In this document: positions 5,014-26,275 of the stretch, piece after piece | Position numbering within the stretch: position 1 is the first letter of the stretch | Layout: each line of letters begins with the position of its first letter | Origin: Chitinophagales bacterium | GTDB lineage: Bacteria > Bacteroidota > Bacteroidia > Chitinophagales > CAIODY01 | Reading direction: 5' to 3' | DNA length: 57,651 bases | NCBI GenBank assembly: GCA_947452995.1 | Contig: CANGEV010000015.1 | Location: forward strand, 1 to 57,651 | Translations under genes and position numbers: made by a program | Notes under the pieces: model-generated | The model's database searches: none | The model's input: the letters and a program-made list of their open reading frames with translations, nothing else | Told to the model about the DNA's origin: nothing

Positions 5014-6707
5014 ACAAAATGAATGCTCGTCGTCGCTCTTTGCAAAGGCTTTTCATCAGTCTTTTAGCCTTAGTGGCCTTAAATATCGCCGCACAATATT
5101 TTTTCTATCGCTTAGATTTAACAGCGGAGAAGCGTTATACTTTAACTAGCGCCACTATCGAAGATTTGAAAAAGTTGGATGATAATGTCTATATCAAATG
5201 CTATTTGAAAGGCGAATTTCCTGGCGGTTTTCGTCAGCTACAACGTAGCACTAAAGAGATGCTCGACGCCTTTGTAGGTGTGGCAGGAAAGAAAATTAAA
5301 TACGATTTCATCAACCCTTCAGAAGGTAATGCTACGCAGAAAGAAGAACTCCGTAAGCAACTGGAGAAAAAAGGAATCAACCCAATCAACCTCAATCTGC
5401 AAGGAGAAGACAACTATAAAGAACAGATCATTTATCCATGGTGCGTCATTAGCTATAAAGACATGGAATATCCGGTCTTTTTGTTGAATCAACAACTTGG
5501 AAAAAGCTCTAGTGAACAGCTGAACAATTCCGAAGCCTTGTTGGAATTTAATTTGATTCAAGGCATTCATCGTCTCACCAATAACAAGAATCGTAAAAAA
5601 ATTGCGATCTCTGAAGGCAACGGAGAAATGTCCGACCCACAGATGTATGATTTCATCCAGACCTTATCTCTTGATTATGATGTGGCACGTGCTAATATCA
5701 ATCAACTCCTTTTTATTCCGGATAAAGTAGATGCCTTGGTTATTCCAAAGCCTACTAAGCCTTTGAGTGAACAGACGAAGTTCAAGATTGATCAATATAT
5801 CATGCATGGCGGTAAGGTGTTATGGCTAATCGATCAGCTGGATGGCGATGTCGACAGTTTGAGAACGCGAAACGAATATATCGCTCCGGACTATGCGCTT
5901 AACCTCGACGATCAATTGTTCAGTTATGGCGTGCGTGTCAATCGCGCTTTATTGCAAGATAAGCTCTGTGCTCCGATACCTATGGTAACAGGCTACGATC
6001 AGGCAAGCAATCCCCGTACTAGCTTCTTCCCTTGGATGTATTTCCCTGTGATTATGCCTGATGGCACACATCCTATCGTGAAGAATATGGACGCTATTCT
6101 AACCCTCTTCCCGAACTTCATTGATACGGTAGGTGGAAAGGGAATTTTAAAAACAGTCTTATTACATAGCTCACCTGCTTCACGTGCTGTATTTAGTCCG
6201 GCCTTTGTAAGTTTACGCACTTTAAAGATGCAACCGCAAGCGAGCTATTTCACCAACCCGAACCGAGCGGTAGCTGTTTTGTTGGAAGGAAGCTTTACCT
6301 CTTTGTATGAAAGTCGTCTAGCGCCCGAAACGATGGGCTTGCTAGATTCTATGAACATAAAGTTTGTGCCGAAGAGTATGCCTAACAAGATGATTGTTGT
6401 GGCCGACGGTGATATTGTTAAAAATCCAGTTAATAAGAAAGGGGTCAATTATCCATGCGGTTATTATCCATTCACCAAAACAACCTTTGCCAATAAGACA
6501 TTCTTGTTGAATTGCGTGCAATACCTTACAGAAGGGGATGGTGTCATCGCGGCGCGCTCGAAAGAAATCAAGTTGCGTATCCTCGATCGTGAGAAGGTGC
6601 GTAATGAAAAGAATTTCTGGATATGGATGAATCTTGCTGTTCCAATTGCTTTATTGTTGCTTGTTGGATTTGTCATTACTGTTTGGCGAGAACGCCGCTA
6701 CAAGTAA
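5007..6707 (+). CDS. gldG: GldG, gliding-motility ABC transporter component
   Basis: The 566-residue protein has an N-terminal membrane helix (about residues 12-32, LFISLLALVALNIAAQYFF), a large extracytoplasmic domain beginning with the characteristic YRLDLTAEKRYTLT segment, and a C-terminal helix (MNLAVPIALLLLVGFVITVW) with a short basic tail. This is the GldG (ABC-2 accessory) architecture. The ATG at 5007 overlaps the end of gldF by 7 bases; an ATG four codons later (5019) is an alternative. Together with GldF it would form the membrane part of an ABC machine required for gliding in related bacteria. The convergent flippase gene begins only 5 bases past its stop codon. Confidence 0.94.
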   Translation: MVNKMNARRRSLQRLFISLLALVALNIAAQYFFYRLDLTAEKRYTLTSATIEDLKKLDDNVYIKCYLKGEFPGGFRQLQRSTKEMLDAFVGVAGKKIKYDFINPSEGNATQKEELRKQLEKKGINPINLNLQGEDNYKEQIIYPWCVISYKDMEYPVFLLNQQLGKSSSEQLNNSEALLEFNLIQGIHRLTNNKNRKKIAISEGNGEMSDPQMYDFIQTLSLDYDVARANINQLLFIPDKVDALVIPKPTKPLSEQTKFKIDQYIMHGGKVLWLIDQLDGDVDSLRTRNEYIAPDYALNLDDQLFSYGVRVNRALLQDKLCAPIPMVTGYDQASNPRTSFFPWMYFPVIMPDGTHPIVKNMDAILTLFPNFIDTVGGKGILKTVLLHSSPASRAVFSPAFVSLRTLKMQPQASYFTNPNRAVAVLLEGSFTSLYESRLAPETMGLLDSMNIKFVPKSMPNKMIVVADGDIVKNPVNKKGVNYPCGYYPFTKTTFANKTFLLNCVQYLTEGDGVIAARSKEIKLRILDREKVRNEKNFWIWMNLAVPIALLLLVGFVITVWRERRYK

Positions 6708-6712
6708 TCCCG

Positions 6713-8173
6713 CTACACGCGTTTTACAATAAGTAAACTCGTAGCGCAGCCTATTAGGAACAAGCTAATACAAGCCCATAGTCCGGCTCCGTGATACGCC
6801 CACATTCCGTGTGCACTGTAAACGCCTGCCACCAAGTAATGAACTAGACTGTATAAAATAATCCAAACGCCTAGTAACAATCCAATCTTCGCGATAGGAT
6901 ATGGAATCGGATAATTACGCTGCCCGAAGAAATAGGATACCAGCATCATAGAAGCATAACAAATAAGCGTAGCCCACGCACTCGCAACATAACCATATTG
7001 TGGGATGAAGGCGAAATTGATGAGCAAAGTAATCACGGCTCCGAAAATAGTAATATAACTGCCGGCCAATGTTTTATTGGTGAGCTTATACCAAATGCTG
7101 AGGTTATAGTAAATGCCTAGGCAAAGATTGGCTACTAAGAGGATAGGAACCACTTTCAACCCCACTCGATATTTTACGCCGATGAAGTATTGGAGTGTAT
7201 CCATGAAGAACAAAGTTCCAAACAAAATCACGAGGCAGAAAGCGACGAAAAAGTACATGACGCGAGCGTAGAGCTTAGGAGCATCCGCTTTGTCTGCATG
7301 TTGGAAGAAGAAAGGTTCGGCAGCCATTCTAAAGGCTTGAATAAAGAGCGTAATGATGATAGAAAGCTTATAGCAGGCGCCGTAGATGCCAATCTGCGTC
7401 TTCGCTTCCTGAACATCTGGAATCAAATAGTTAAGCAAGATACGATCGAACGTTTCATTGATCATACCCGCAAAGCCAATCACTATTAGTGGTAACGCAT
7501 AGGGAAGAAGCGTCTTTACTAAAGTCATTTCCGGCCAGCGTAAATGGCGAAGCAGCGTTGGAAGGAAGTAAATAAATACCAAAGCACTCGCCAAAAGATT
7601 ACTGATAAATACATAGCCGATGCCGATGCTTGGCTGATAGAGCTTCCCAAACCATTCCGGATGTTTTGGAGCCACCACGATCATCAAAAGTGTACTGCTT
7701 ATGTTTATTCCGATGCTTCCCAAACGAAGAAGAGCGTATTGCAGGGCCTTACCTTCGTAACGGAGACGGGCGAAGGGTAGGGTAGTAAGCGTATCAAAAA
7801 ATAAGATACCTATCATACAGGCCATCAAATACGGATATTGTTCGTAATGTAACTTCGTGTTGATAGTAGGCGTTAAAATGAAAAGGATGCTTGAAAAAAT
7901 CAAACTAGAGGCTAAAAGTAAACTGTTTCCCGTGGAATAAACCGGACCTTCATCTTGCTGCTTACAGAACCTAAAATAAGCCGTTTCCATGCCGTAGGTG
8001 AAAATTACGTTGAGGAAGCTGATATAAGCGTAAAACTCAGTGTTGATTCCAAAAGCTGCTGGCGCAAAGTAATTCGTAAGAATGGGCGTCAAGAGGTAGT
8101 TCAGCAAGCGCCCTACCATGCTGCTGAGGCCGTAAACGGCCGTCTGACCGACAAGTTTCTTGATTAAGCTCAC
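6713..8173 (-). CDS. Polysaccharide/oligosaccharide flippase (Wzx/MATE-like)
   Basis: The 486-residue protein is almost entirely hydrophobic, with about 14 helices, and starts MSLIKKLVGQTAVYGLSSM, the typical opening of the polysaccharide-synthase (Wzx/RfbX) branch of the MOP superfamily. These proteins flip lipid-linked oligosaccharides to the outer leaflet of the inner membrane. No other glycan gene is adjacent; glycosyltransferases occur elsewhere in the window. It is transcribed towards gldG, with just 5 bases between the two stop codons. The substrate cannot be inferred. Confidence 0.85.
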   Translation of the reverse strand: MSLIKKLVGQTAVYGLSSMVGRLLNYLLTPILTNYFAPAAFGINTEFYAYISFLNVIFTYGMETAYFRFCKQQDEGPVYSTGNSLLLASSLIFSSILFILTPTINTKLHYEQYPYLMACMIGILFFDTLTTLPFARLRYEGKALQYALLRLGSIGINISSTLLMIVVAPKHPEWFGKLYQPSIGIGYVFISNLLASALVFIYFLPTLLRHLRWPEMTLVKTLLPYALPLIVIGFAGMINETFDRILLNYLIPDVQEAKTQIGIYGACYKLSIIITLFIQAFRMAAEPFFFQHADKADAPKLYARVMYFFVAFCLVILFGTLFFMDTLQYFIGVKYRVGLKVVPILLVANLCLGIYYNLSIWYKLTNKTLAGSYITIFGAVITLLINFAFIPQYGYVASAWATLICYASMMLVSYFFGQRNYPIPYPIAKIGLLLGVWIILYSLVHYLVAGVYSAHGMWAYHGAGLWACISLFLIGCATSLLIVKRV

Positions 8174-13171: not shown

Positions 13172-14629
13172 ATGTTGCAAAAAATCAATGATTTCATCCG
13201 CCAAAACAAATGGCTTGTATTGATTATCGTGTTCGGACTATTAGCTCGCATCGCTTATGTAGTACTGTTTTCAGGATTTTTTGCTAAAGCATATTTAGGG
13301 CGCGATACCTTATTCTATCCCGGAAGTGACTTTGGGACTTCGCTCATCGCCTTCAAAAATCTTGTTCAGCATGGAACCTATTCTGTAAACCTAAACGATC
13401 CATTAGGTGCATTTAACCGAATGCCTGGATATGCTTTCTTTATTGGAATCATCTCCCTACTTTTTGCAGAACCCTATAACATGTATGTTGTCAGCGGCGC
13501 TCAAATTATCATCGATTGTATTGCCATAGTTTTGGTATTCGCCTTACTCCACAAACGGTTTAATACAAGCCTTAAAATAGCACTGCTAGGCGCTTTCATC
13601 TATGCAGCCTATCCCATTGCCATTATCTGGACGCCCGTATTGTTTTCTGATTCTATTGGCGCCTTCTTCTCCTTATGGATAGCCTATGTATTCCTTGCCA
13701 ATCAAGAAAATAAAAGACATTGGTTTATACTCGGACTACTTATTGGCTTTGCAATGTTGTTCCGTCCGCAAGCACTTTTGTCCATCTTAGTCATCGGTGC
13801 CATAGAGCTTTGGATAAACAGACGGATACTAAAACACTATTTCGTGTGTATGCTCTTTATGGGAATCGGTATCGCATTAACGTATGGTATTTACCCTGCC
13901 CGCAACGTCGTATTACAACATCGTTTGGTATTGTTTCAAGATTTACGCGGTTCTGGTAACTGTTGGAATGATGCGACCGTCAATTATATGCAATATGTTT
14001 ATTCGGTGCAAAGTCATTGGGATCCGGCATGGACTAGCATCCTGAAAAATAAGCCATTTGAAATTGATAAAGCAGCCTATGCGGTACCTGGTGATTCCTT
14101 GATTTTAATGCGCGCCGTTAAAAATGCGCAAAATTGTAGCTATGCCTTCAGTTGTTGGGATGGCTACTGGGCAGAAAGACGTTCGTCTAATAATTTATCT
14201 TGCGATAGCGCTATAGCAGCTGATTTCGCGCTTTTGCGTGCGCATCAGATAAAATATAACGCATACCATTTTTGGGTGAGCTTGCCATTAGAAAACTTGA
14301 ATAAGTGCTTATTAAAATCAGAGATAAGTAATAAGAAGAAAGGAGGTCTCGTCGCGCAATTAGTGCCGTTTGTTTTTTATTATCGTACGCTTTTAATTCT
14401 GTTAGGAATCCTCGCTTGCGTAATCGGCCTTTATCGTCGTCAACATACCCGCGCCCTGCTATTTATTTTGCTTTCATTCACCTCTTGGTACTTACTCATC
14501 TCTGCAGGCACTATGGCGCAGCTTCGTAATATCGAAATGCGCTATCTATTACCCGTAGATGTTTTATTGTTGGTGCCCGTCGCTTTGCTTTTCACAAAAT
14601 TGAAATTCTTCGCTAAGGAAGACGAATGA
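13172..14629 (+). CDS. GT-C fold membrane glycosyltransferase (GT39/ArnT-like)
   Basis: The 485-residue polytopic protein has about 11-12 helices. The first extracytoplasmic loop (FKNLVQHGTYS, then FNRMPGYAFFIG) resembles the acceptor/donor loop of GT-C enzymes that use polyprenyl-phosphate sugars, with acidic residues D in LGRDTLFYPGSD close to the first helix. A soluble periplasmic segment containing several cysteines (CWND, NCSYAFSCWDGYW) lies before the last helices. The start at 13172 was preferred over an upstream TTG frame that begins inside the terminator T-tract. A -7-like TATCTTCA lies at 13146-13153. Donor and acceptor are unknown. The convergent lycopene cyclase gene is 12 bases away. 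Confidence 0.65.
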   Translation: MLQKINDFIRQNKWLVLIIVFGLLARIAYVVLFSGFFAKAYLGRDTLFYPGSDFGTSLIAFKNLVQHGTYSVNLNDPLGAFNRMPGYAFFIGIISLLFAEPYNMYVVSGAQIIIDCIAIVLVFALLHKRFNTSLKIALLGAFIYAAYPIAIIWTPVLFSDSIGAFFSLWIAYVFLANQENKRHWFILGLLIGFAMLFRPQALLSILVIGAIELWINRRILKHYFVCMLFMGIGIALTYGIYPARNVVLQHRLVLFQDLRGSGNCWNDATVNYMQYVYSVQSHWDPAWTSILKNKPFEIDKAAYAVPGDSLILMRAVKNAQNCSYAFSCWDGYWAERRSSNNLSCDSAIAADFALLRAHQIKYNAYHFWVSLPLENLNKCLLKSEISNKKKGGLVAQLVPFVFYYRTLLILLGILACVIGLYRRQHTRALLFILLSFTSWYLLISAGTMAQLRNIEMRYLLPVDVLLLVPVALLFTKLKFFAKEDE

Positions 14630-14641
14630 TTCAGCAATCGC

Positions 14642-15325
14642 TTAGGCTTTCGCTTGAATCTTCTCCATGATATAGATCGGAAGTAATAATCCCGTCAACG
14701 CATACACGAAATCTTCTATCGGGATCGTGATGAAGCGAATACCGATGATTTCATGGCCACTATACCAAACGACCGGCGAAGAGGTGACAGCGCCTGTTAA
14801 TATGCCATTGATGAGGATGAAGGGGATTAAATGAATGAAATAAGCAATCCAAAAGGAGCGCATCCAAACAGGCTTTACAACAAAAGTAAGATAGGATAAG
14901 AGTAAAATCGCAAGGACGAAGTTTACTAAAGTATATAAGCGATCTACGAAAAAGGGTAATGCGAACAATAAGGCTACAATGACCACCCAATTCCAATACT
15001 TGATGGAAGTAGATGATTTTTTTAACGAAGGGAAGTATGCGTTTGAACAGGCATAAATGAATACCGAAGCATATGGAACTACCACGAAGAAACTCCATTC
15101 CTCAATCGGCAAACGTGCCCAACGTGTTGCCCAAACATAGTCGGGATTAAATCCCCAAACACCCTGCTTAACAAACCATGAATCCCAGCTGATAAATAAA
15201 AGTGCGTTGATGGCAATGCCGATAAATAAGCCCTTCCAATGCTTATAAAACGCCACTTTTTGGTCGAAACTCAAAGCGAGTGGACCAGTCAATGAAGCGA
15301 GCATTAGCCAGGCGTATAAACTCAT
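14642..15325 (-). CDS. Lycopene beta-cyclase, CrtYcd-type membrane protein
   Basis: The 227-residue, seven-helix protein contains two copies of the lycopene cyclase domain found in the heterodimeric CrtYc/CrtYd enzymes of actinobacteria, here joined in one chain as in archaea and many Bacteroidota. The key motif PIEEWSFFVVVP is at about residues 73-84 and a second similar element, PIEDFVYALTG, at about 201-211; these acidic pairs are the likely catalytic residues. It would form beta-ionone rings on lycopene. It is the last gene of the carotenoid operon and its start overlaps the end of crtZ by 4 bases. Confidence 0.88.
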   Translation of the reverse strand: MSLYAWLMLASLTGPLALSFDQKVAFYKHWKGLFIGIAINALLFISWDSWFVKQGVWGFNPDYVWATRWARLPIEEWSFFVVVPYASVFIYACSNAYFPSLKKSSTSIKYWNWVVIVALLFALPFFVDRLYTLVNFVLAILLLSYLTFVVKPVWMRSFWIAYFIHLIPFILINGILTGAVTSSPVVWYSGHEIIGIRFITIPIEDFVYALTGLLLPIYIMEKIQAKA

Positions 15326-15777
15326 TTGCTGGTATTTGGATCTTTCCAGTATTTGTAAGGCACAATTAACATTCCGAAGTTCTCACCATCTTCCTTACTA
15401 ATATGTTTGTGGTGCATTTTATGCGCTCTGCGAATCGCACGTACATAACGATTATTCCAATGCGTCCAAATCTTGAAACGCTGGTGAATAATGATATCGT
15501 GCACGATAAAATAGCCTAGTCCGTAAATCGAAATACCAATGCCGATATAAAGTTTGAAATCCAACCCGGCAATGATACCTGTGATATAACAAATCATACT
15601 AGGCACCGCGAAAATCACGAAAAACCAATCATTCTTTTCAAAGAAACTGCCGTCAACAGCATGATGATCTTCATGCAAATGCCATAAAAAGCCGTGCATG
15701 ACGTATTTGTGGGCAAACCATGCCACAAATTCCATAAAGAAAAACGTTGCGATAACGATGAGTATATTCCAAATCAT
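15322..15777 (-). CDS. crtZ: Beta-carotene 3-hydroxylase (CrtZ)
   Basis: The 151-residue membrane di-iron protein belongs to the fatty-acid hydroxylase superfamily and carries the histidine clusters HKYVMHG, HEDHH, HDIIIH and RAHKMHHKH. It adds the 3-hydroxyl to beta-ionone rings. Its length is normal for CrtZ. It overlaps the lycopene cyclase gene by 4 bases (ATGA-type coupling) and lies 30 bases after the CruF-like gene, so ring formation and ring hydroxylation are co-expressed. Confidence 0.92.
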   Translation of the reverse strand: MIWNILIVIATFFFMEFVAWFAHKYVMHGFLWHLHEDHHAVDGSFFEKNDWFFVIFAVPSMICYITGIIAGLDFKLYIGIGISIYGLGYFIVHDIIIHQRFKIWTHWNNRYVRAIRRAHKMHHKHISKEDGENFGMLIVPYKYWKDPNTSK

Positions 15778-15807
15778 AATTGTAAAACACGAAGTACGCG
15801 TTTTTGT

Positions 15808-16452
15808 TTAATCTTTTAAGAACAAAATGAGTCCGCTAAAGAACAAAAGCTGTAATCCATACAAAACGCCTGATAGGCGATTAATTGGCAATGTTCGTCT
15901 GTTCCGCAGGATGATATACTGTACGCCGATACCTAAACAGAACCAAGCTAGATAGTTTTGTAGCGGAGCCGTGCCTGCGTCCCAATACCAAAAGTCGAGC
16001 TTCGAACAAATACGCTCCATCGGCAAATCCGTCAGTACCATTAACAAACTGCCGAAAATAACCTGTAACAGGAGATCTTTGTCAGATAGCAAGCTTCGCG
16101 CAAGTTCAGCGCTTAATAAGGCTAGCAGAAGCCAGTTAATGCCCATCGTTAAGGGAATACCATCCAACTTCCATCCTAATCGTTCTCCGTAATGATACGC
16201 ACCAAAGGGAAATGAAGTGCGCACTCCCAACCATTCTATCCCAACGCCGAAAAGTACTAAGCCAAGCGCTAATAGTATTTGACGCAATTGCCAAGACCTT
16301 CCTTCACAAAAAATAAAGAGCGACATACAAACGATTAAATGTATCGGAGTGGCCTGCTGTACCCATTCTACGGAACGAATAGTTCCAATAAACCCTACCA
16401 AATAGAGTATGATTAAGAACAATGCACTGCCATTCGTTTTATTAATTTTCAT
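15808..16452 (-). CDS. CruF-like carotenoid C-1',2'-hydratase
   Basis: The 214-residue integral membrane protein (about seven helices) belongs to the DUF422/CruF family. The diagnostic stretch is GVRTSFPFGAYHYGERLG followed by GIPLTMGINWLLLA (about residues 70-110), with a later DLPMERICSKLDFWYW. CruF adds water to the psi end of gamma-carotene or related carotenoids. I start at 16452 (MKINK); an in-frame upstream start at 16470 would overlap the preceding gene further. The overlap with the desaturase gene (11 bases) indicates translational coupling. Confidence 0.82.
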   Translation of the reverse strand: MKINKTNGSALFLIILYLVGFIGTIRSVEWVQQATPIHLIVCMSLFIFCEGRSWQLRQILLALGLVLFGVGIEWLGVRTSFPFGAYHYGERLGWKLDGIPLTMGINWLLLALLSAELARSLLSDKDLLLQVIFGSLLMVLTDLPMERICSKLDFWYWDAGTAPLQNYLAWFCLGIGVQYIILRNRRTLPINRLSGVLYGLQLLFFSGLILFLKD

Positions 16453-17932
16453 ATTTCGCAATGAGTTCACTGGTTATTTTAGCGCTATTCAAACATAATG
16501 GAATGCCTCCTCCCGGATGAACACTGCCTCCGCAAAAGTATAAATTTTTGAGACGATTGCTTTTGTTAGCTTGTCGCCAAAAGGCTGCCATTCGCTCATT
16601 CGAGGCATGTCCGTACAAGCCACCACCAATAGATGCAGTACGCTGCTCAATACGTGGAGGATCTAGAAAATCTTCTTCTTCTATCAACGAAGCGATGTCT
16701 TGTTGTAGAATCGCACTCATTTTTTCAATTACGTTCGTCCGAACACTTTTTCGGATCTCCTCCCAATTTTGCCCATTATCTGCCGCTACATTCACCATGA
16801 CAAACCAATTTTCTCCTACGGCTGGCGCGTCGGATATAACTTGCTTTGAGCCGATATTGATATAAATGGTCGGATCATCACTATAACCTTTTCCATTGAA
16901 AATGGCTTCGAACTCCGATTTATAATCCGCGGTGAAGAAGAGGTTGTGTAGGCGTAATGCTGGGAATTTTCGTTTCACACCCCAGTAGAAAATGATCGCC
17001 GATGACGAAGACGCAAGTCGATCAAATGCCTTCGGAGCAGGGATCTCTGGGATTAAGTGTTCATAGGCAAAACGAATGTCAGCATTACAAACCACTAGGT
17101 CGCTACTTATCTCTTGCTCATCCATCAAACGAATGCCAACAGCTTTGCCATCTTGTGTTAGAATGCGTTTTACCGCTTTATTGAATTCAAACTGCACCCC
17201 ACATTTTTGCGCTAAGGCGAATAAGGCTTCTGTAATTTGATGCATTCCTTTTTTGGGATAAAAGGTGCCATAGCCGTGCTCAAGGTGCGGAATCAAATTC
17301 AACAAGGCTGGCGCTTCATACGGATCACTGCCATTATAAGTAGCAAAACGATCAAAATATTGTTGTAAGCGTTTATCTTGAAAAAGTGCTTCATTCTCTG
17401 TATGCATCCGTCCGAACAAGCCTAATCTAGGCACTTTTGCGATGGCTGGTAAAACGGCCTTCGAAAAATAAGTACGCCATTCATGTAAGCTGCGTTCCAA
17501 AAATAAGGGAGCCGTGGCTTCGTAGCGGAGCTTCGCGCGCGACAAGTGTTTGAAAAAAGTAGCTACCTCCTTTTCTGAAAAAAGTGCGCTAAGACGCTTG
17601 CGGAAAAGCATTTCGTCCTTATGCGTATAAAACGAACTGCCGTCAGAAAAGTGATAGTAAAAGGCTTCGGGAATTTCTTCGAATTCAAAATAGTCGGCTG
17701 CCCGCAATCCTGCTGCATGAAATAAGTCGATCAACAAATGCGGCAAAGTAAATAGGGAAGGACCCGCATCAAACGTATAAGCCCCCATTTTTCGTTGCGT
17801 GAGCTTACCGCCGGGATAGGCGTTTTTCTCATACACCGTAACACGCTTGCCTTGTAAGGCTAAACGAATGGCCACTGCCAAGCCCGCAAGCCCCGACCCA
17901 ATAACGATTACCTGCTTTGCTTGCTTTTCCAT
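16442..17932 (-). CDS. Carotenoid desaturase, probably 1-hydroxycarotenoid 3,4-desaturase (CrtD)
   Basis: The 496-residue FAD enzyme has the N-terminal dinucleotide motif VIGSGLAGLAVAIRLA, then YEKNAYPGGKL and FDAGPSLFTLP, and the C-terminal YFCGGSVHPGGGIPLCL of the CrtI/CrtD family. The YPGGKL and DAGPSLFTLP variants and its place beside a CruF-like hydratase make CrtD more likely than phytoene desaturase CrtI; I hold this at moderate confidence. It is the first gene of the operon. No crtB or second desaturase gene is in the window, so lycopene would have to be made by genes elsewhere. The 149-base spacer to the divergent gene holds its promoter; no clear box was recognised. Confidence 0.8.
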   Translation of the reverse strand: MEKQAKQVIVIGSGLAGLAVAIRLALQGKRVTVYEKNAYPGGKLTQRKMGAYTFDAGPSLFTLPHLLIDLFHAAGLRAADYFEFEEIPEAFYYHFSDGSSFYTHKDEMLFRKRLSALFSEKEVATFFKHLSRAKLRYEATAPLFLERSLHEWRTYFSKAVLPAIAKVPRLGLFGRMHTENEALFQDKRLQQYFDRFATYNGSDPYEAPALLNLIPHLEHGYGTFYPKKGMHQITEALFALAQKCGVQFEFNKAVKRILTQDGKAVGIRLMDEQEISSDLVVCNADIRFAYEHLIPEIPAPKAFDRLASSSSAIIFYWGVKRKFPALRLHNLFFTADYKSEFEAIFNGKGYSDDPTIYINIGSKQVISDAPAVGENWFVMVNVAADNGQNWEEIRKSVRTNVIEKMSAILQQDIASLIEEEDFLDPPRIEQRTASIGGGLYGHASNERMAAFWRQANKSNRLKNLYFCGGSVHPGGGIPLCLNSAKITSELIAKYEN

Positions 17933-18081
17933 CTTTTTAAAACAATTGTTACTGTAAAAGGTTTAAGCAATATCCTTGTATTTACTTCAAACGTTTAACA
18001 AAATAAGCATTTGATTCACAGCATATTCATTTTCAATACAACAAAATTTATATAAATTTACCATAGCTTATTTTGCTCTTT

Positions 18082-22486: not shown

Positions 22487-23512
22487 ATGAAGCACTTATC
22501 TTCTTATAAATCTCTCGAAAACGCTGCTAATCAACGAATTTTGATTATTGATGGTGCTATGGGTACTATGATTCAGCGATATAATTTAACGGAGCAGGAC
22601 TTTCGCGGCGAGCGATTTACTGCTCATTCAGGCGATTTAAAGGGCAATAACGACCTTTTGAGTATCACCCGTCCGGATGTAATTGGAGCGATTCATCGTG
22701 AGTATTTGGCCGCTGGCGCGGATATTATCGAAACGAATACCTTCTCCGGCACAAAAATCGCGCAAGCCGACTATCATCTCGAAGAGGCTGTTTATGATAT
22801 CAATTTTTATTCTGCAAAAATCGCACGCGAAGCTGCAGAGGAGTATACCGCCAAAACCCCCGATAAACCGCGCTTTGTTGCCGGAGCCGTTGGGCCAACG
22901 AATCGTACACTATCACTCTCTCCAGACGTTAACAACCCTGGATACCGTGCTGTGACCTTTGATGAAGTAAAAAGCGCCTACGCCGAACAAGTGGCTGCAC
23001 TCATCGACGGTGGCGTTGATATCATCCTAATCGAAACAATCTTCGATACCCTCAATGCGAAAGCAGCGATCTTCGCAACAAAAGAAGTCTTTAAAGAAAA
23101 AGAGATCGAACTGCCGATTATGATTAGCGGTACCATCACCGACGCAAGTGGTAGAACCTTGAGTGGACAAACCTTAGAGGCCTTCTATATCTCAATTGCC
23201 CATGCTAAACCCTTCTCCGTTGGTATCAACTGCGCACTCGGTGCAGAAGATATGCGTTCTCACATCGAAGAGTTGAACCGCATTTCAACGTGTCGCGTTT
23301 CTTGTTATCCAAATGCAGGACTACCGAATGCATTTGGTGGCTACGATGAAACACCAGAACATATGTGTCATATCGTCGAAGAATGGGCGCAAAATGGATG
23401 GATTAATATCGCAGGTGGTTGTTGCGGAACAACACCCGAACATATTCAACATATGAATAGTCACCTAGCGAAATTAAGTCCGCGTCCATTGCCGCAATTA
23501 CTCCAAAATTAA
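22487..23512 (+). CDS. metH: Methionine synthase, homocysteine-binding part (split MetH, N-terminal)
   Basis: The 341-residue protein corresponds to the first module of cobalamin-dependent methionine synthase. It has the barrel start [15 protein letters not shown] and the zinc-binding cysteines (GINCALG near residue 250, and GGCCGTT with C312 and C313). It binds and activates homocysteine. It ends cleanly after this domain, and the rest of MetH is encoded by the next gene after 78 bases. The break is at a domain boundary and both genes are intact, so it reads as a functional split, not a frameshift. Confidence 0.95.
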
Positions 23513-23590
23513 GTTGCACTTCTTCTTTGTGCTGCCTTGAAAAAGCATGCGTAAAAGTCCTTTACAAATCCGTAATTTGCATCAGCATAC

Positions 23591-26275
23591 ATGAATACGA
23601 TACATCCATATCTTAGGCTTTCCGGATTAGAACCACTCGTGGTTCGTCCTGAAACAAATTTTATAAATATTGGCGAGCGAACAAACGTAACGGGTTCGAA
23701 AATGTTCGCGCGTTTAATCAAAGAAGATAAATACGACGAAGCATTGGCCGTTGCCTTGCAACAAGTCGAAAATGGCGCACAGGTGATTGATATTAACATG
23801 GATGAAGGGATGTTAGATGGCGAATTTGCCATGACTAAATTCCTGAATCTTATCGCCTCTGAACCTAATATCAGTAAGGTGCCTATCATGTTAGATAGTA
23901 GCAAGTGGAGCGTGATAGAAGCCGGCTTGAAATGTGTGCAAGGAAAAGCAATTGTCAATTCTATTTCATTAAAAGAAGGCGAAGATAAATTTATTGAGCA
24001 AGCAGAGAAATGCTTGATGTACGGTGCTGCGGTGGTGGTAATGGCCTTCGATGAAGTTGGGCAAGCCGATACGATCGAACGAAAGGTGAGTATTTGTGAA
24101 CGCGCCTATAAGATTCTAACGGAGCGTGTAGGCTATGCGTCACAAGACATCATTTTTGATCCAAATATTTTCGCAGTCGCTACAGGTATTGAAGAACATA
24201 ATAACTATGCGATCAATTTTATTGAAGCAACGCGTCAAATAAAACAGAAAATGCCATTAGCTAAAGTTAGTGGTGGCGTTAGCAATATCTCCTTTTCCTT
24301 TAGAGGGAACGATGTCGTGCGTGAAGCAATGCATTCAGTATTTTTATACTATGCTATTCAAGCAGGAATGGATATGGGTATTGTCAACGCAGGGATGATT
24401 CAAGTGTATGATGAAATTGAACCTACCTTATTGACCTTAGTAGAAGATGTGATTCTGAATCGACGTGCAGATGCGACAGAACGTTTGGTTGCGCATGCCG
24501 AAACGATTAAAAGTAAAGGTAAAGTATTAGTAAAGGATGAATCATGGCGTCTGGAATCGGTAGAGTCGAGGCTGACACATGCCTTGGTAAACGGGATTGT
24601 AGAGTATATCGACATTGATACCGAAGAAGCACGCGTTAAATATAGCACGCCACTTCAAGTGATTGAAGGACCCCTTATGGATGGAATGAACGTCGTGGGT
24701 GAATTGTTTGGCTCAGGGAAAATGTTCTTACCGCAAGTAGTAAAAAGTGCTCGCGTAATGAAACGTGCAGTAGCCTATTTAAATCCATTCATTGAACAGG
24801 AGAAGAAAAATAACAATACGACTTCGAGTGCGAAGAAAGTCTTGCTTGCCACTGTAAAAGGGGATGTGCATGATATTGGAAAGAATATCGTTGGCGTAGT
24901 ATTGGGCTGTAATGGCTATGAGATTATTGATATGGGAGTGATGGTTCCTGCTGACAAGATTCTACAGAAAGCAAAAGAAGAAAACGTCGATATCATCGGT
25001 TTAAGTGGTTTGATTACGCCTTCGTTAGATGAAATGGTGCATGTCGCTTCGGAAATGAAACGTCAAGAGTTTCGTATTCCATTATTAATTGGCGGCGCCA
25101 CCACATCACGTATGCATACTGCAGTGAAAATTGCTCCGGCATATGATCATGCTGTAATCCATGTATTGGACGCATCGAAAAGTGTACCTGTTGTTTCTGC
25201 CTTGTTAAGTGAAGACGGTCGAGCGCCGTTAAGCGAACAGATCAAGAATGAATATGATGCCTTGCGTGAAGGATTTTTACAACGTAAAGTGGATAAAGAT
25301 TTTCTTCCAATTAGTAAAGCAAGAGAGAATAAGTGGACCACAGATTGGGCGAATTACGCGCCGCCAGTGCCTCCGCAATTAGGCGCACGTGTTTTCACAA
25401 ATGTAAAAATAAGTGATATCGTTCCATTTATCGACTGGACTCCCTTCTTCATTGCATGGGAGTTTCGTGGTAAATACCCAGAAATCTTCAATCATCCTGA
25501 ATGGGGTACTGTTGCGAAAGGATTACACAATGATGCGTTGAAATTGATAGATCAAATCATTGAAAATGATTGGTTGATTGCGCGAGCAGCATTTGGTTTT
25601 TATCCCGCTTATTCTGACGGAGATGATGTGGTGATTACGGATCCTAAAACAAATACTACGAAGCGTCTGCACTTTGTTCGCCAACAAATGGTGAAAGCTA
25701 AAGGGGAACCTAATTTCTGCTTAGCTGATTTTATTGCACCTAAAGATTCGGGTAAACAAGATTATATCGGTGCCTTTGCCGTTACTGCTGGAATTAATTT
25801 GGAGGAACGCGCAGCTTTGATGCAAGAGCGTTTGGATGATTATCAATCTATTTTGCTGAAAGCAGTTGGCGACCGCTTAGCAGAAGCATTAGCGGAATAC
25901 TTACATCTAAAAGTACGTAAACAATATTGGGGTTATGCGGCTGATGAAGAATGGAATAATGATGAATTAATTCATGAAAATTATCGTGGTATTCGTCCTG
26001 CTCCAGGCTATCCGGCTTGCCCAGATCATACAGAAAAGCTGACCTTATTTGAGTTGGTTGACCCGGAGGCTAAAACTGGGATTACACTTACGGAATCACT
26101 TGCCATGCACCCTGCAGCAAGTGTTTCAGGTTGGTACTTTGCACATCCTGATGCGAAATATTTCGGTGTTGGTAAGGTATATAAAGATCAGGTGGAAGAT
26201 TATACCAAACGGAAAGAGCAATCTTTGGAAGAGACAGAAAAGTGGCTGCGCCCTAATTTAAGTTATGATATATAA
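23591..26275 (+). CDS. metH: Methionine synthase, pterin-, B12- and activation-domain part (split MetH)
   Basis: The 894-residue protein carries the remaining MetH modules in order: methyltetrahydrofolate-binding barrel (residues about 1-300, starting [20 protein letters not shown]), cobalamin cap and Rossmann domain (about 310-540, with DVHDIG at 425-430; H427 is the cobalt ligand), and the SAM-binding reactivation domain (about 560-894, with [12 protein letters not shown]). It uses methylcobalamin to methylate the homocysteine presented by the neighbouring protein. A TAATTTG element about 20 bases before the start may be a second promoter. The next gene begins 9 bases after its stop. Confidence 0.96.

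Follow-up and report, generated by a model that had tools for sequence, protein, structure and literature searches.

The described pigment systems closest to the locus studied here are the flexixanthin genes of Algoriphagus and the myxol cluster of Nonlabens spongiae. According to the available text on Algoriphagus sp. oki45, and on KK10202C cited there, crtD, cruF, a fused crtYcd and crtZ act on lycopene supplied by crtB and crtI, the same set that is encoded in our source genome (PMC10784355). Algoriphagus additionally carries crtW, and oki45 crtG (PMC10784355), whereas no crtW was found in the source genome in a search run without a control. The N. spongiae cluster shares crtD, cruF and crtZ, which were expressed in Escherichia coli, but it has a CrtY-type cyclase instead of CrtYcd, contains crtA-OH, and holds all genes but crtE in one place (PMC11855829). 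The stepwise E. coli expression of these genes provides the closest experimental support for the product predicted below (PMC11855829). Among metagenome-assembled genomes of Bacteroidota, two loci (L092 and L107) read crtI-crtB-idi-crtD-cruF-crtZ-crtYcd, with the same order of the last four genes as in our locus, and a third (L073) is alike from crtB on. L092 and L107 each form one continuous cluster, whereas the crtI-crtB-idi half of the source genome lies on a separate contig. Taken as a gene cluster, our locus chiefly adds one more Bacteroidota lineage to those with a known pathway.

The window analyzed is a stretch of 57,651 nucleotides in which four carotenoid genes had been proposed at positions 14642-17932, and all four open reading frames were recovered at these coordinates on the minus strand. 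Read 5' to 3' on that strand (17932-14642), the order is crtD, cruF, crtZ and fused crtYcd. The first gene, crtD (16442..17932), encodes a 1-hydroxycarotenoid 3,4-desaturase of 496 aa, and overlaps by 11 bases with cruF (15808..16452), a carotenoid 1,2-hydratase gene of 214 aa when read from the ATG at 16452. An alternative GTG start at 16470 would give 15808-16470 and 220 aa; judged by position, the ATG is the likelier start. A gap of 30 bases separates cruF from crtZ (15322..15777; beta-ring 3-hydroxylase, 151 aa), which in turn shares 4 bases (ATGA) with crtYcd (14642..15325; fused lycopene beta-cyclase, 227 aa). Beyond crtYcd, a plus-strand reading frame that ends at 14629 meets the operon tail to tail, and at the operon's other side a reading frame starting at 18073 diverges from it. 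The 140 bases of this divergent intergenic region (17933..18072, listed with the operon's minus strand) should contain the operon promoter.

For the first gene, the earlier note had called for placement in a CrtI/CrtD phylogeny. The encoded protein scored 565.4 bits, far above chance, against NF042421, the curated CrtD equivalog (cut-off 500), and 284 bits against the phytoene-desaturase equivalog NF058655, far below the cut-off of 640. The genome's own CrtI, encoded next to crtB, showed the opposite pattern, with 231 of the 500 bits required for NF042421 and 694 bits against the 640 for NF058655. In a tree of 31 sequences, none of them biochemically characterized, a single split with a support of 100/100 separated 18 CrtD rows (17 of 101 candidate CrtD reading frames and our own) from 13 CrtI rows (all 12 CrtI-like reading frames and our own, with L028 as a long branch). 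The 16442 gene fell on the CrtD side, apart from the CrtI of the same genome. It is conceivable that this gene is instead a second phytoene desaturase, which would leave a pathway lacking the 3',4'-didehydro end, and membership in the CrtI/CrtD superfamily (TIGR02734, 314.5 bits) agrees with that; however, both the reversed equivalog scores of the two paralogs and the fully supported split argue against it, and we regard it as very improbable. A CrtI identity was therefore rejected, and the gene is identified as crtD, in line with the note's proposal.

The other three assignments, to a CruF-like hydratase, CrtZ and a fused cyclase, gained support from family matches far above chance for the hydratase and the cyclase and, for CrtZ, from identity and histidine conservation. 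The cruF product contains a PF04240 domain (98.3 bits) and its gene adjoins crtD. It stayed below every NCBIfam equivalog cut-off tried, all of them bisanhydrobacterioruberin or gamma-carotene CruF models (TIGR03460, 84.9 of 154.7 bits; NF045693, 47.8 of 400; NF041333, 46.3 of 300), which keeps it outside those families; our claim is that the 15808 gene product putatively works like CruF. In an alignment of 79 rows, 18 positions were identical in at least 95% of the sequences, including E79, D148 and E152 (numbering from the GTG). For CrtZ, a threshold of E 0.001 gave no match to any Pfam or NCBIfam model. The protein is 48-62% identical to CrtZ-like proteins encoded beside crtD/cruF in other genomes, 60% identical to the cluster crtZ product of Robiginitalea myxolifaciens (L101) and 97% identical to its counterpart in the same-genus locus L010. 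Ten histidines (23, 28, 35, 38, 39, 93, 98, 119, 122 and 123) were identical in 20 of 20 rows, a pattern that we take to be the di-iron one. As the family models gave no match, the name CrtZ is based on cluster homology and these ten invariant histidines. Matches of crtYcd to PF18916 (115 bits) and TIGR03462 (86 bits) each fell in two stretches, indicating two CarR-type domains in one chain, and E76 and D205 were identical in all 14 rows.

Genes for phytoene synthase and phytoene desaturase are absent from the operon and had been expected elsewhere. A check of the source genome located both on contig C3, where crtI, crtB and idi are adjacent in that order; the name idi for the third gene is provisional and follows its position. 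The single SQS_PSY protein of the genome lies on this contig and was taken as crtB. Against NCBIfam it matched HpnD, HpnC and CrtB models, in every case below cut-off, so that the name rests mainly on its neighbors. A third CrtI-like match, on contig C26, amounts to 31% identity over 88 residues and could conceivably belong to a CrtO-type ketolase.

The end-group modifiers that would lead beyond saproxanthin were searched for throughout the 2.54 Mb genome. Two FA_desaturase proteins were found, neither of them CrtW-like, in a search that used PF00487 hits, NCBIfam matches and histidine motifs read in the sequences. Since the best NCBIfam matches of both proteins are fatty-acid desaturase models (below cut-off), no crtW was seen. 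Within the limits of this uncontrolled search for crtW, the result agrees with the earlier statements that a ketolase is lacking and that flexixanthin is less likely, and flexixanthin is not favored. For crtA-OH, the myxol 2'-hydroxylase gene, a profile was built from 7 of 10 crtD or cruF neighbors in relatives, including one from R. myxolifaciens that scored 207.5 of 300 bits against the spheroidene monooxygenase model NF045923. The profile matched in four of six genomes, namely all four positive controls (two of which supply a row of the profile alignment), and gave no match in the source genome or in its same-genus relative G043. Of the alternatives saproxanthin or myxol that had been offered, the former is therefore retained, and myxol is not favored.

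With the gene identities supported as above, and with reactions taken from characterized homologs, the operon probably supplies the end-group half of a pathway to a monocyclic C40 xanthophyll, with saproxanthin as the predicted end product. Starting from GGPP, the C3-encoded CrtB and CrtI would make phytoene and then lycopene. CrtYcd would close one lycopene end to a beta ring, which CrtZ would hydroxylate at C-3; the opposite end would be hydrated at C-1',2' by CruF and desaturated at C-3',4' by CrtD. Saproxanthin is expected because neither a ketolase nor a 2'-hydroxylase was found. It would be accompanied by gamma-carotene-type intermediates and possibly some zeaxanthin, since CruF and the cyclase are rivals for the second lycopene end. 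The operon is predicted to yield a yellow-orange pigment of the kind known from related bacteria.

Carried to its extreme, this competition would make dicyclic zeaxanthin the main pigment, with CrtYcd closing the two ends ahead of CruF, and CrtZ hydroxylating both rings. CrtYcd, CrtZ and the lycopene genes would suffice for this, and for the similar N. spongiae gene set the authors themselves predicted myxol and/or zeaxanthin (PMC11855829). However, the main N. spongiae product was monocyclic, although its cyclase is of a different type (PMC11855829), and crtD and cruF of our operon are intact and keep their conserved positions. We consider zeaxanthin as main pigment quite unlikely. Hardly more probable is that saproxanthin is modified further, by 2-hydroxylation, glycosylation or acylation, through enzymes encoded outside the cluster. 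Two FA_hydroxylase-family proteins elsewhere in the genome are candidate ring 2-hydroxylases, and Algoriphagus oki45, which has a crtG homolog, makes a 2-hydroxy flexixanthin derivative (available text of PMC10784355). Yet nothing found ties either FA_hydroxylase protein to carotenoids, crtA-OH is absent, and no second crtZ was found in the genome. In a side observation, a very long protein on contig C31 (L125) was seen to have an FA_hydroxylase domain (PF04116 match at 6510-6911) joined to a second region. This second region, in our assumption, resembles a GH3-type acyl-adenylating enzyme.

Gene order was compared across 109 loci, 80 of them named loci picked by crtD and 29 from the order picked by cruF, a choice which makes the counts uninformative on how common the genes are. 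The counts are also minimum values: many loci are short, the 29 from the order reach only about 1.5 kb beyond cruF in either direction, and distant genes escape the BLAST threshold. With these limits, cruF came right after crtD in 75 of the 109 loci; the run extended to crtZ in 13, and through crtZ to a fused cyclase in 8 (L010, L035, L054, L055, L073, L092, L100 and L107). L010 belongs to a relative of the same genus, and crtB-idi stands ahead of the four genes in three of the eight (L073, L092 and L107). The locus is an ordinary, well-formed, split pathway of the saproxanthin type, and its gene order is ordinary as well. The earlier note had read the gene overlaps as a sign of fixed stoichiometry between ring and linear-end modification, which the comparison did not bear out: with starts counted at the ATG nearest the stop, 39 of 73 measured crtD/cruF junctions overlapped and 34 did not, with gaps of up to 194 bases. 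Overlapping is thus frequent without being obligatory, and it allows no firm inference on stoichiometry. Of the 149 genomes from the order, 86, our own among them, have a CruF relative. Within the family the distribution is patchy, with CruF in two of six genomes (the source genome and G043) and not found in G056, G015, G030 and G067; the pigment operon may have been lost or transferred, or the assemblies may be incomplete.

The source genome also encodes a proteorhodopsin (L040; contig C33, 22-738, minus strand), and the pigment operon would matter more if its pigment served this rhodopsin. The closest PDB entries are 9jov and 9jou, and the alignment gives a D-T-E pattern, which we take to be that of proton pumps. 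Residues were numbered by way of a plasmid-borne xanthorhodopsin-like protein aligned to Xanthorhodopsin (XR) and Kin4B8. On this basis, G135 aligns with the fenestration glycine (XR Gly156) and Y187 with the conserved tyrosine (XR Tyr207), T191 occupies the polar helix-6 position that is also threonine in KR1, and the aspartate of KR1 corresponds to a proline at position 192. The source rhodopsin thus has the fenestration glycine and the helix-6 tyrosine and threonine of Kin4B8 and KR1, which bind 3-hydroxyxanthophylls, but differs from them in the proline that replaces the second polar residue, and its carotenoid binding is putative. The glycine was present in all aligned relatives and absent only from the green proteorhodopsin 7b03, and is therefore a trait of the rhodopsin group rather than a match to saproxanthin.

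Saproxanthin, as a monocyclic 3-hydroxycarotenoid, could act as a light-harvesting antenna of this proteorhodopsin, its 3-hydroxy ring docked through the glycine fenestration and retinal obtained without a recognizable Blh, but we hold this to be a rather doubtful proposition. The Blh family PF15461 had no match in the source genome, compared with 18 positive genomes among the 149 of the order. In G003, a rhodopsin 87% identical to ours is followed by Blh. Contigs C31 (at the end of L143) and C33 (at the start of L040) have 149 bases in common, which fall within the end of the rhodopsin gene, and the assembly break at this spot may conceal a branch. Beyond the rhodopsin end, C31 continues with a reading frame that we take to be helicase-like, and no Blh was found there. 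Functional rhodopsin can be made even by a bacterium that lacks known retinal genes, according to the available text of PMC7734400. In G043 and G056, genomes of the same genus, no rhodopsin turned up, yet the operon is kept in G043; this weighs against antenna service as the operon's main purpose. The antenna work consulted names zeaxanthin, lutein, nostoxanthin and ketocarotenoids, and its main text uses none of the words saproxanthin, myxol and monocyclic (PMC12308411). Among the titles and abstract openings listed by literature searches that paired myxol or saproxanthin with rhodopsin or antenna, none reports such an antenna.

Next to crtI-crtB-idi lie, in divergent arrangement, a gene which we take to be sigma-factor-like and a CarH-like regulator gene (L005; contig C3, 11020-12557). 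The regulator matched NF052513 with 85.6 bits, below cut-off, and a 12-base inverted repeat with a 9-base gap stands between them. The upstream regions of the two crt loci, the carH-like gene, the rhodopsin and a photolyase gene had no 9- to 12-mer common to three or more of them, and even with up to three mismatches allowed, the window contains no copy of the dyad beside the carH-like gene. Its half-site occurred at about chance frequency (34 found and 28 expected in the window, 16 and 11.7 in L005). A light/B12 operator joining the two crt loci, rhodopsin and photolyase was therefore rejected. Elsewhere in the window (22487-26275), a B12-dependent methionine synthase is divided between two genes, one for the homocysteine methyltransferase (22487-23512) and one for the pterin, B12 and activation domains (23591-26275).
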